Origin: Oscillospiraceae bacterium
GTDB lineage: Bacteria; Bacillota; Clostridia; Oscillospirales; Ruminococcaceae
Length of the DNA: 64,000 nt
Assembly: GCA_021199355.1 (NCBI GenBank)
Contig: JAJQIF010000009.1
Span: 549,792 to 613,791 of the forward strand
Direction: 5' to 3'
Shown here one piece after another: positions 16,314 to 45,115 of this stretch (the first letter of the stretch is position 1; each line of letters opens with the position of its first letter). The notes below the pieces were generated by a model. It had not been told where the DNA came from and made no database searches. It saw nothing but the letters and a program-made list of their open reading frames with translations. The translations under genes and the position numbers were made by a program.

Positions 16314-16347
16314 ATTCTATCCCAGCCTGATAGCGTAATTTGTCAAA
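16314..16347 (-). promoter_or_regulatory. spoIIG promoter: -35/-10 with 21-nt spacer and 0A-like box
   Basis: Minus strand: TTGACA (16346-16341) and TAGAAT (16319-16314) separated by 21 nt. The plus-strand TGTCAAA (16341-16347) differs by one base from the 0A box TGTCGAA and overlaps the -35. A 22-bp spacer and Spo0A sites overlapping the -35 are known from the B. subtilis spoIIG promoter. The leader would be only about 10 nt, which is unusually short. Confidence 0.55.
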
Positions 16348-35056: not shown

Positions 35057-35812
35057 TCAGGTTGTTTCGAAACTGCTTGGATTATCTTCAACCTTAGCCA
35101 TGTATACCAAAATGGGCGAAAAATAATTATCCGGAATGTAGGACTTTCGGGATTTCAGAGTTATTTCACCACTCGATGCGAGTGGAAGACGGAAGGAGAA
35201 AACAAGACCACCGTCAGCATTATCGTCAACGATGATGTTGGTGTGGGCTTCGCGACAAAACTTGCCGACGACCGCCAAGCCGGTGTTACTATCCTTGTCG
35301 CAGAGACGTTTTTCAATTTCCTCAAGGTTCGCGCCATAGCCGTTATCCGAAACAATAACGGAAGCACTCCCTTTTAGCTTCGATATTTTAATCCTGATTT
35401 TACCGTTGTCGTTATCTACATTCCTGATAGCGTTTACTATAAGGTTCATCAGGCAGGAAGTAAGCCTGTCGGGGTCAGCTTCGACATAGATGCCATCCTC
35501 GATTTCGGCGATAAACTCAACAGAAGAACGCCTTAGCCTTGAACGGCAAACGTTAATCATATCATCAACCAGATCGGACAGGCAGAAAGAAACCGGCTTG
35601 TACTCGTCAAGCTTAGCCATTTCTTCGGTGTTGATGACAGCGGAAAGAACCTTGTAGCAAGATGACACAATCCTTGAGACAGTGTCTATTTCTTCATACA
35701 CATCGGCATCTTCGAGAGAGAGCTCCAGACGCTCGGCACAGGAGACTATCTCCATAAGATTGCTTCTTATGACAGTACATTCATGCTTGTTGAGCTCCAG
35801 CAATTCGTCCAC
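35057..35812 (-). CDS. Sensorless histidine-kinase-like protein (HATPase)
   Basis: 251 residues, no membrane segment and no sensor domain. Residues 1-80 are a helical dimerisation-like region with one His followed by Glu (NKHECTVIRSNL, His10) that could be the phospho-acceptor. Residues 90-215 are a GHKL ATPase: N box LMNLIVNAIRN near 125-135, G1 VSDNGYGAN near 155-163, then GLAVVGKFCREAH and GGLVFSFRLP. The G2 glycine loop is weak. GTG start with GGGAGGTG 8 bases upstream. Its promoter is preceded by two tandem 0A boxes, so Spo0A control is likely; no response regulator lies beside it. Candidate Spo0A kinase or phosphatase (inference). Confidence 0.75.
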   Translation of the reverse strand: MDELLELNKHECTVIRSNLMEIVSCAERLELSLEDADVYEEIDTVSRIVSSCYKVLSAVINTEEMAKLDEYKPVSFCLSDLVDDMINVCRSRLRRSSVEFIAEIEDGIYVEADPDRLTSCLMNLIVNAIRNVDNDNGKIRIKISKLKGSASVIVSDNGYGANLEEIEKRLCDKDSNTGLAVVGKFCREAHTNIIVDDNADGGLVFSFRLPLASSGEITLKSRKSYIPDNYFSPILVYMAKVEDNPSSFETT

Positions 35813-35900: not shown

Positions 35901-35917
35901 TTCGACTTATTTCGACA
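35901..35917 (-). promoter_or_regulatory. Tandem 0A boxes (Spo0A binding site)
   Basis: Minus strand TGTCGAA-ATA-AGTCGAA: an exact 0A box and a 6/7 box, 10 bp apart, same orientation, 7 bases upstream of the -35. The same geometry (box, 3 bases, box) is bound by a Spo0A dimer at the B. subtilis abrB promoter. Confidence 0.7.
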
Positions 35918-43610: not shown

Positions 43611-43859
43611 ATGACTGAAACTGTTCTTAAGATAGACGGTATGATGTGCTCGATGTGTGAATCACATGTAAATGACGTAGTGAGAAGCAAATTCAAAATT
43701 AAAAAGGTTACTTCTTCTCACAAGAAAGGCGAAACTATAATAATCTCAGAATCCACTTTACCGATTGATGAACTTTCAGATGCCATAGGTGCTACCGGTT
43801 ATAGGGTCTTGTCTGTTGACAGTCACCCATACATCAAAAAGGGGCTTTTTTCAAAATAA
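43611..43859 (+). CDS. Heavy-metal-associated (HMA) domain protein
   Basis: 82 residues with the ferredoxin-like HMA fold and metal-binding motif GMMCSMCESHV (M-x-C-x2-C near residues 11-15), as in copper chaperones CopZ. The C-terminus VLSVDSHPYIKKGLFSK departs from the family. AAAGGAGG lies 11 bases before the ATG. It is downstream of the feo genes on the same strand, so it may be cotranscribed; metal may be Cu(I) or Zn(II). Confidence 0.85.
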   Translation: MTETVLKIDGMMCSMCESHVNDVVRSKFKIKKVTSSHKKGETIIISESTLPIDELSDAIGATGYRVLSVDSHPYIKKGLFSK

Positions 43860-43867
43860 TTTTGAAA

Positions 43868-43884
43868 TTCGACAAAATTCGAGT
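43868..43884 (+). promoter_or_regulatory. Tandem 0A boxes before the receiverless Spo0A gene
   Basis: TTCGACA-AAA-TTCGAGT: exact complement of the 0A box TGTCGAA, then a 5/7 copy 10 bp on, same orientation, touching the -35. Confidence 0.55.
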
Positions 43885-43911
43885 TGATGTTTTCGAAATA
43901 TGTGGTATAAT
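43884..43911 (+). promoter_or_regulatory. Promoter of the receiverless Spo0A gene
   Basis: -35 TTGATG (43884-43889), 16-nt spacer, TGG plus -10 TATAAT (43906-43911), extended -10. Start codon 54 bases downstream. Confidence 0.65.
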
Positions 43912-43964
43912 ATAGGGAGAAGGCGAATAAAGCCGATAACAAATAACTATAGAGAGGGTTTAAC

Positions 43965-44453
43965 ATGGAAAATGCGATGTATAGTCTCACTAAGATTACT
44001 GAAGATGCCGGGGCAAGAGTTTGCTGTACCGGCGACATATCGGAAATCATGAAATTCGTTGCAAAAGAAAACACGCCGGCGGAAATCCACAATGCCTCAC
44101 CTGAATTCGAACCGTATCTGTCTGACTTACTGGCAAAGTTGGGCATGCCCGCAAGTCTCCGCGGTTATGAGTATCTCAAAGCCGCAATAAAACTTACTTT
44201 GGACTCCCCTACATGTCTCCATCGTCGTGTTACATCGTGCCTTTACCCCGAGATTGCAACTCTGTCTGACACAAACGCGGCGTGTGTTGAACGAGCTATT
44301 CGTCACGCAATCACTGTGCTTTGGGACAGAGGAGATTTAGAACAACTGAACAATATTTTCGGCAGTAGCATTTCAGCAAAGACCGGGAAAGCTACCAATT
44401 CCGAGTTTATCGCGAGAATCTCGGAAATGGTCAGGAACAACGTAACGCTCTGA
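43965..44453 (+). CDS. Receiverless Spo0A-type DNA-binding protein
   Basis: 162 residues. Residues 50-160 align by eye along the full Spo0A C-terminal DNA-binding domain: LLAKLGMPASLRGYEYLKAAI, CLYPEIATLSDTNAACVERAIRHAITVLWDRGD (the recognition helix VERAIRHAI is intact), NNIFG and ATNSEFIARISE. The receiver domain with the phospho-Asp is absent; residues 1-48 are a short unknown segment (with VCCTGD near 19-24). In Spo0A the receiver blocks DNA binding until phosphorylated, so this form may bind 0A boxes constitutively (inference). GAGAGGG precedes the ATG; own terminator at 44479-44511. Neighbouring spoIIID. Confidence 0.88.
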   Translation: MENAMYSLTKITEDAGARVCCTGDISEIMKFVAKENTPAEIHNASPEFEPYLSDLLAKLGMPASLRGYEYLKAAIKLTLDSPTCLHRRVTSCLYPEIATLSDTNAACVERAIRHAITVLWDRGDLEQLNNIFGSSISAKTGKATNSEFIARISEMVRNNVTL

Positions 44454-44478: not shown

Positions 44479-44511
44479 TAAAGCCTCTTCGTAAAAGCGA
44501 AGAGGCTTTAT
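44479..44511. terminator. Terminator of the receiverless Spo0A gene
   Basis: Stem AAAGCCTCTTCG / CGAAGAGGCTTT with a short loop, A-rich before and TATGATT after; also positioned past the stop of the convergent peptide gene. Confidence 0.85.
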
Positions 44512-44527
44512 GATTGTGCACTAATTT

Positions 44528-44641
44528 TCAATCATTGAGGTCAATCATCTTCAGAGAATTTTCATTAGCTGAAGTCACAATCCACTCATTTTCTTCATAG
44601 TTGATGATTTCCATCTCTTGCTTTTCGTATTCTTTGTCCAT
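44528..44641 (-). CDS. 37-residue acidic peptide
   Basis: Opens MDKEYEKQEMEIINYEENEW and ends SLKMIDLND: about a third acidic, no signal peptide, no Cys. GGAGGG lies 8 bases before the ATG and a textbook promoter (44707-44735) with a 0A box in its spacer drives it. It converges on the receiverless Spo0A gene and shares its terminator. Not recognised; could be an anti-sigma-like or kinase-inhibiting micro-protein or a peptide-modification precursor. Judged real from promoter, ribosome binding site and terminator, not from similarity. Confidence 0.6.
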   Translation of the reverse strand: MDKEYEKQEMEIINYEENEWIVTSANENSLKMIDLND

Positions 44642-44845: not shown

Positions 44846-45115
44846 TCAGCGGTTGTGCATTGCCGCCATCTCATATTTCCTCTTGGTGGCTTCCCCACCA
44901 CGGATATGCCTTTCCTTCTTGTTGATATCAAGAATGACCTTGACCTCTTCGTAGAGCGACGGTTCTACTTTTTGCAGTCTTTTACTGACGTCCTGGTGAA
45001 CCGTGGATTTACTGATTCCGAACTCTTTTGCCGCCTGTCGGACGGTCGCCCTGTTTTCAACTATGTATTCGCCTAAAATCACTGGGCGTTCTCTGTCCCT
45101 CGGTATTTCCGTCAT
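44846..45115 (-). CDS. spoIIID: Sporulation transcription regulator SpoIIID
   Basis: Mother-cell DNA-binding protein that switches sigma-E to sigma-K gene expression. 89 residues (B. subtilis 93): ERPVILGEYIVENRATVRQAAKEFGISKSTVHQDVSKRL is the helix-turn-helix, and HIRGGEATKRKY near residue 70-81 is the family's basic C-terminal signature. AGGAGTGAG lies upstream of the ATG. Monocistronic with a terminator. Companion sporulation genes are 29 kb away and the receiverless Spo0A next door. Confidence 0.95.
   Translation of the reverse strand: MTEIPRDRERPVILGEYIVENRATVRQAAKEFGISKSTVHQDVSKRLQKVEPSLYEEVKVILDINKKERHIRGGEATKRKYEMAAMHNR

Follow-up and report, generated by a model that had tools for sequence, protein, structure and literature searches.

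Action of Spo0A~P at spoIIG in Bacillus subtilis is established, and spoIIGA is a classical Spo0A-activated gene. Receiver-deleted forms of Spo0A, which are laboratory constructs, share their domain layout with the protein described here, which is encoded by a natural gene family. The action of Spo0A~P at spoIIG in B. subtilis is discussed in the available excerpt of PMC12090719. The isolated DNA-binding domain of Spo0A binds 0A boxes without phosphorylation, according to the accessible part of PMC3485338; these Spo0A-DBD constructs have the same domain layout and are likewise laboratory constructs. Another related system is the phage-carried Spo0A that retains only the DNA-binding effector domain (PMC10294663); the portion of that paper at hand cites Ireton 1993 for independence from host signals. 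Receiverless Spo0A as such is thus not new. No description of a chromosomal receiverless family was found in the open-access literature, most subscription papers lying outside that scope, and such a family with a shared promoter was found undescribed.

The gene analysed here lies in a stretch of 64,000 nucleotides from an Oscillospiraceae bacterium of the gut (the window) and belongs to a family of receiverless (RL) Spo0A paralogues that are found in chromosomes across the genus. Its product, P0001, shares with Spo0A (TIGR02875) the Spo0A_C domain, including the greater part of the recognition helix, and 0A boxes as the matching site. It differs in having no receiver, in its length (162 against 277 aa), in being an extra copy and in scoring below the equivalog cut-off. 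Like the truncated Spo0A in the available part of PMC10294663 it keeps the effector domain alone, but the RL genes are chromosomal, lie in housekeeping surroundings and carry a spoIIG-type tandem-box promoter. The features of the locus, and the spoIIGA promoter used for comparison, are as follows.

43611–43859, plus strand: HMA-type small protein at the end of the feo cluster (20.6 bits, below the Pfam cut-off)
43868–43874, minus strand: 0A box 1, TTCGACA on the plus strand and TGTCGAA on the minus strand, a perfect consensus
43878–43884, minus strand: 0A box 2, TTCGAGT on the plus strand, 5/7 matches, 3 bp past box 1
43906–43911, plus strand: -10 element TATAAT, exactly 21 bp past box 2, with TGTGG in front (TG extension)
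43965–44453, plus strand: RL Spo0A_C protein P0001, 162 aa, uninterrupted frame
43965–44120, plus strand: N-terminal ~50 residues of P0001, without family match
44121–44426, plus strand: Spo0A_C DNA-binding domain of P0001, residues 53–154 (Pfam; PDB 1fc3 and 1lq1 by sequence)
44480–44509, plus strand: palindrome AAAGCCTCTTCG-CGAAGAGGCTTT, a possible terminator seen by eye, without a long T run
44528–44641, minus strand: ORF of a 37-aa peptide between the RL gene and spoIIID, with a promoter TTGACA-17-TATCAT assigned by eye
44846–45115, minus strand: spoIIID (Pfam), a neighbour outside the device
16314–16347, minus strand: spoIIGA promoter, TTTGACA-N21-TAGAAT, in the same register as the RL promoter

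The domain content of P0001 was examined with Pfam. PF08769 (Spo0A_C) was matched by residues 53–154 with 111.5 bits (cut-off 25; E 2.3e-32) and no Response_reg match was seen at E values up to 1, in agreement with the sequence-only reading, which had described a 162-residue Spo0A_C protein without a phospho-receiver. The score against TIGR02875, the NCBIfam equivalog for Spo0A, was 112.6 bits, below the cut-off of 200. The only solved chains that matched P0001 by sequence were 1fc3 and 1lq1, both DNA-binding domains of Spo0A. Residues 1–50, searched alone, matched no Pfam family at E values up to 1. This N-terminal region of about 50 residues varies among RL proteins and is absent from group B of the family, and is therefore probably not central to it.

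The same reading took the recognition helix to be intact. The segment VERAIRHAI is indeed retained, but P0001 has C at position 211 (B. subtilis numbering), where R is found in 30/30 canonical Spo0A copies of the genus. E213, R214, R217, H218, F236, K246, T248 and N249 are kept, and the other substitutions are I at 240 and S at 257. We take some of these positions to contact bases, and F236 and position 240 to be part of the activation surface. Among the 16 rows of group A, to which P0001 belongs, position 211 is C in 8, S in 4, R in 3 and N in 1; E213, R217 and F236 are present in all 16, H218 in 15, and position 214 is R in 13 and K in 3. Since R211 is mostly replaced in group A, the affinity or specificity of the RL proteins may have shifted. 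Group B (32 rows, among them L052 and L053) has E213 and R217 throughout, mostly T, N or S at position 218, and F236 in 29 rows. V or I occupies position 240 in most RL rows. By analogy with the isolated-domain work in the available part of PMC3485338, P0001 could bind 0A boxes unphosphorylated.

The genome of origin (G000; 1.86 Mb, rated 100% complete) gave two Spo0A_C matches at E 0.001, namely P0001 and a full-length Spo0A of 277 aa on a different contig (G000:C14; receiver 54.0 bits, Spo0A_C 146.4 bits). As the latter carries both domains, the cell has both forms of Spo0A; the suggestion of a receiverless paralogue beside the full-length protein holds, and the contrary case, in which P0001 is the only Spo0A of the genome and works with a separate receiver gene, is ruled out by G000:C14. 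The pattern of a pseudogene is also absent. The RL gene is uninterrupted in four species and its dN/dS between them is 0.14–0.20 (6 pairs); feoB (0.03–0.06) and gap (0.01–0.05) both lie below the RL gene, and for the small HMA gene, which has few changes, the range is 0.07–0.40. Purifying selection acts on the RL gene.

A search of named genomes with P0001 returned three relatives at 91–95% identity, all in metagenome-assembled genomes, two labelled Oscillospiraceae bacterium and one Ruminococcus sp. Full-length Spo0A was present in 30 of 31 genus genomes, and none was seen in G028 (76% complete). RL genes above the cut-off were found in 25 of the 31 (G000 and G006 to G029, counted by hand), G027 being counted through its two-domain protein. 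The remaining six have no clear RL gene, G001 having one weaker match of 39.7 bits. In a sample of the bacterial family Spo0A_C was present in 92/98 genomes, and short-frame copies of the domain also occur in several other genera, among the matches listed. Counts of Spo0A_C domains miscount Spo0A, which would matter when sporulation potential is read from gut genomes.

The genomic position of the RL genes was compared with that of the window gene, for which the order feoB - HMA - RL - spoIIID - gap is common to the window, G007, G012 and G013. G006, G008 and G010 have no RL gene at this site, where 44–48 bp separate the HMA gene from spoIIID, and a conserved link of the RL gene to feo and spoIIID was rejected on these grounds. 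Among the genomes examined, a search for a receiverless Spo0A next to spoIIID or feo gave four species, plus one group B gene of G016 (L057 / L231, G016:C155) that also adjoins spoIIID, a placement that seems to have arisen separately from that of the window lineage. The claim that the gene sits beside spoIIID is true of the window, with the qualifications that the 37-aa ORF lies between them and that an RL gene of the window type is found there in only four species. The remaining RL genes that were fetched are at other loci. Some of these loci are shared among relatives (L035, L038, L039 and L040; L036, L042 and L044; L048, L049 and L054), and genes for an ABC transporter, an FtsX-type permease, a signal peptidase and an RNA methyltransferase are found near some of them. 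Since RL genes occur at several loci, the neighbourhood does not explain them; what recurs is the promoter.

The promoter of the window gene reads TTCGACA-AAA-TTCGAGT-21 bp-TATAAT, and box 2 has the same sequence in four species. The sequence-only reading had pointed to tandem 0A boxes with a 10-bp repeat touching the -35. The tandem boxes were confirmed; as for the -35, box 2 lies in the -35 zone, but no consensus -35 was seen in the window RL promoter. Scans of the own genome with the promoter pattern gave one site, that of the RL gene, against three for the reversed pattern at up to 3 mismatches, and one against one at up to 2. As the reversed pattern is at least as frequent as the forward one, the count in a single genome is no test against chance, and the weight of the tandem boxes comes from their recurrence in the family.

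This recurrence was assessed in 43 RL models, a set without L052 and L053 (each a second full-length Spo0A whose receiver scores weakly), without further copies in G016, G022 and G023 and without weak or partial ones in G001, G017 and G020. Tandem boxes with a 3-bp spacer, matching at 11/14 or better, were found in 37 of the 43, and 34 have a -10 that scores 4/6 or more at precisely 21 bp past box 2 (the best-scoring place in 33). Means of 200 mononucleotide shuffles were 0.5 and 0.01 models, respectively; start codons were made uncritical. The six models without the tandem are L036, L051, L068, the second gene of L069, and L070 twice, the L070 pair offering just ~70 bp of sequence to inspect. 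Related RL copies are not independent, and for that reason one model per 70%-identity cluster was counted as well; the promoter is retained in 23 of 28 clusters. Boxes and -10 are strongly conserved, the 21 bp between them are mostly variable, and TG often precedes the -10.

The spacing is specific. At a threshold of 12/14 within 150 bp, two boxes with the 3-bp spacer, oriented as at the window gene, precede 30 of 45 extra Spo0A_C genes, and no other spacer length in the range 0–14 bp is seen in more than 6/45 models. With the same settings, other ORFs of the RL loci gave 1/369 in the same orientation and 7/369 in the opposite one, and the upstream regions of canonical spo0A genes gave 3/30. 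RL genes from other genera of the family (20 loci) had no same-orientation tandem at 12/14, and L143 had one in the opposite orientation. When the 31 genus genomes were scanned with the promoter pattern at up to 2 mismatches, 36 sites were obtained, against 2 for the reversed pattern. Of these, 31 are directly upstream of RL genes, as assigned by hand from coordinates, and five are away from them (G003:C5, G006:C1, G006:C28, G010:C5 and G011:C6).

The register of the RL promoter was compared with that of spoIIGA at 30 loci (G002 excluded). In 16 of them a 0A box matching at 6/7 or more ends precisely 21 bp upstream of a -10 matching at 5/6 or more, with at most one locus at each other distance from 12 to 30 bp and none on the opposite strand. 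When the -10 was relaxed to 4/6 the register became less clean, as 21/30 loci had a box at distance 21, 11 had one at 24 and 8 had one at 26. RL promoters, at 6/7 for the box and 5/6 for the -10, peak at 21 (26/43) and 31 (23/43), which are the two tandem boxes, and other distances reach at most 3. Since the 21-bp distance is shared with spoIIGA, the RL promoters look like Spo0A-activated promoters of the spoIIG type, as the earlier suggestion of Spo0A control would have it. As at a spoIIG-type sigma-A promoter, the 0A box of RL promoters ends 21 bp before the -10; what differs is a second box 10 bp further upstream and an often TG-extended -10. To judge from its sequence, the RL promoter thus looks like a spoIIG-type promoter plus a second box.

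This arrangement suggests how the RL genes may act. With a 0A box 21 bp before the -10 and a second box 10 bp upstream, the RL gene should respond to Spo0A~P, and a spoIIG-type sigma-A promoter would switch it on as Spo0A~P rises. As the receiver, which normally blocks the DNA-binding domain, is missing, the RL protein should bind 0A boxes without phosphorylation and would occupy them, those of its own promoter included. The product would in this way feed back on the Spo0A circuit. Feedback on the sporulation switch is what the anatomy of RL genes argues for; whether it is positive or negative does not follow from that anatomy. The form that we favour, with about even confidence and ahead of the alternatives below, is that of a damper: the RL protein would be a weak or non-activating competitor, by which entry into sporulation and its own expression would be delayed or limited. 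The fusions of two Spo0A_C domains at L051 and L070 are in keeping with binding to tandem sites.

The conservation of F236 could equally mean that the RL protein still activates. In that case it might contact sigma-A RNA polymerase, activate itself and other 0A promoters unphosphorylated, and lock the cell into sporulation after Spo0A~P has started the process. Such a positive latch is a tentative possibility. The geometry of the RL promoter is that of an activated promoter, and the near-complete retention of F236 in both groups, with V or I at 240 in most rows, is in its favour. The behaviour of Spo0A in B. subtilis, where deletion of the receiver makes it a constitutive activator, counts for it as well. 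Against it, it can be argued that an autonomous self-activator would be hard to restrain during growth, and the turnover of RL genes and their absence between species are unlike an essential commitment step.

The decision of a cell to hold back from sporulation or to commit to it is as a rule traced to the kinases that act upstream of Spo0A. Most genomes of the genus add downstream genes that should answer to Spo0A, share its DNA sites and escape tuning by phosphorylation. The recurrence of similar gene and promoter units in related species, at several places in the chromosome, suggests a feedback device on the spore decision.

Within a genome, RL copies have little in common past the promoter and the gene, and the edges of similarity are abrupt. 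Between L044 and L045 there is 93% identity along a 591-bp stretch that opens 18 bp ahead of box 1 and closes 10 bp beyond the stop codon, the flanks being unrelated. L058 shares 86–88% with L059–L061 over 551–605 bp, L065 and L066 share 89% over 495 bp, and L041 and L043 share 78% over 621 bp; edges like those of L044/L045 are also seen in G028, G022 and G006. G023 has four copies (L047/L188–L190) at 89–94% to L047, over 599 bp or over 1.2 kb with the neighbouring gene, and two of the copies also share a neighbouring degenerate Spo0A_C gene. L036 (G009) and L044 (G011) occupy one locus; their flanks are 84–91% alike, but the RL genes give no blastn alignment and only L044 has the tandem boxes, a difference that may reflect replacement or very fast change.

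The abrupt copy edges, this L036/L044 locus and the feo-spoIIID site empty of an RL gene in G006, G008 and G010 would also be expected if the RL protein mainly regulated its own promoter, the ~600-bp unit of promoter and gene being a self-contained cassette that spreads with little role in the host. We consider this unlikely. Around the G016 copies (L192, L193) and L070 there are additional short repeats, and single, weaker 0A boxes, such as that of spoIIG, are possible RL targets that a tandem scan misses. Many short repeats are found around RL genes in G016 and G027 (L192, L193, L055 and L070). A broader proposal, which we regard as doubtful, joins spread to function: a self-propagating ~600-bp cassette, consisting of a Spo0A DNA-binding domain and a promoter seen by both RL protein and Spo0A, would have been copied around the chromosomes of the genus, up to several times per genome, each copy adding a phosphorylation-blind player to the sporulation decision; proteins with two covalently joined domains and the gene of a degenerate partner would be among these players.

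Variant architectures were seen in group B. Two Spo0A_C domains in one chain, with no receiver found, are encoded at L051 (6732–7436) and L070 (40–816 and 13705–14481). A degenerate Spo0A_C gene adjoins the RL gene at L047 (6215–6670, 21.5 bits) and L049 (7184–7603, 13.9 bits), and L054 (2737–3189) and L062 (7373–7798) have candidates for such a neighbour by position; a partner subunit is a possible role for its product. A second full-length Spo0A whose receiver falls below the Pfam cut-off of 30.2 is encoded at L052 (4713–5501, G004; 18.7 bits) and L053 (2288–3091, G002; 23.1 bits), and possibly represents a step toward receiver loss. The tree, which was built from few columns of chromosomal rows and has 18 of 96 inner branches starred, places L052 and L053 elsewhere. 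It joins group A with two long-branched group B rows at 96 and 28 of 32 group B rows at 95; groups A and B come together, with one row of another genus, at only 80, and canonical Spo0A stands apart at 98.

Viral sequences were searched for related genes. A scan of IMG/VR with alignment A2 gave 69 loci, and one with P0001 alone gave none. In 55 of the 69 the domain match is preceded by under 90 residues and the frame is not cut on its upstream side, some of these loci being fragments; tandem boxes at 11/14 or better are upstream of 2/69, where 8/69 have less than 50 bp of upstream sequence. Descent of the RL genes from a phage gene that manipulated host sporulation and is now fixed in the chromosome is highly unlikely, for the short viral frames and the receiverless Spo0A reported in phages in the available part of PMC10294663 are set against the rarity of tandem boxes at viral loci compared with 37/43 RL models, and against the window neighbours of the RL gene (the feo genes with feoB, HMA, spoIIID and gap), among which no phage genes were seen.

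Phage records were also rejected as a source. They gave 14 matches, of which 10 were examined; 9 look like bacterial contigs and one (L199) is receiverless. The nine are faecal records labelled 'Bacteriophage sp.' (MT837510.1, MT835504.1, MT835737.1, MT836771.1 and others; L194–L198 and L200–L203) with frames of 253–300 aa, in which a receiver-like first half precedes Spo0A_C, and these records may be bacterial contigs. Plasmid records gave 4 matches, 3 of them annotated Spo0A.

The 37-aa ORF beside the window gene has relatives at L038 (7516–7665), L039 (14386–14532), L040 (6447–6593) and L043 (7393–7536 and 2406–2555). These peptides are 37–51 aa long with a pattern near YEKHEMEII-FEDDCW, have sigma-A-like promoters by eye and often adjoin RL genes. 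The family had no NCBIfam match, apart from one chance match at E 0.037, and the two peptides tested had no Pfam match; they may be precursors or signalling peptides. The idea that the 37-aa ORF is repressed through the 0A box in its promoter spacer was rejected, as L033 no longer has the exact box and the 200 bp upstream at L038, L039, L040 and both L043 copies contain none. Strict pairing of peptide and RL gene was likewise not upheld: 8 of 10 matches above 50 bits adjoin an RL gene, and those at G011:C2 and G006:C23:35908 do not. Weaker peptide matches (18 to 42 bits) number 28 and are all elsewhere, as assigned by hand.

A wide 0A regulon based on tandem boxes alone was not supported in the own genome, where 23 matches at up to one mismatch were obtained against 8 for the reversed pattern, several of them in coding sequence. 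One cluster of matches is explained by L075 (1470–1570), a gene in which a coding repeat mimics a row of 0A boxes. In the window, a short histidine-kinase-like protein (35057–35812, minus strand; HATPase_c 45.2 bits, no sensor domain in Pfam) has a sigma-A-like promoter, seen by eye, and upstream of that promoter two 0A-like boxes, TGTCGAA-ATA-AGTCGAA (35901–35917). It is a candidate Spo0A kinase or phosphotransfer protein, encoded 8 kb from the RL gene.
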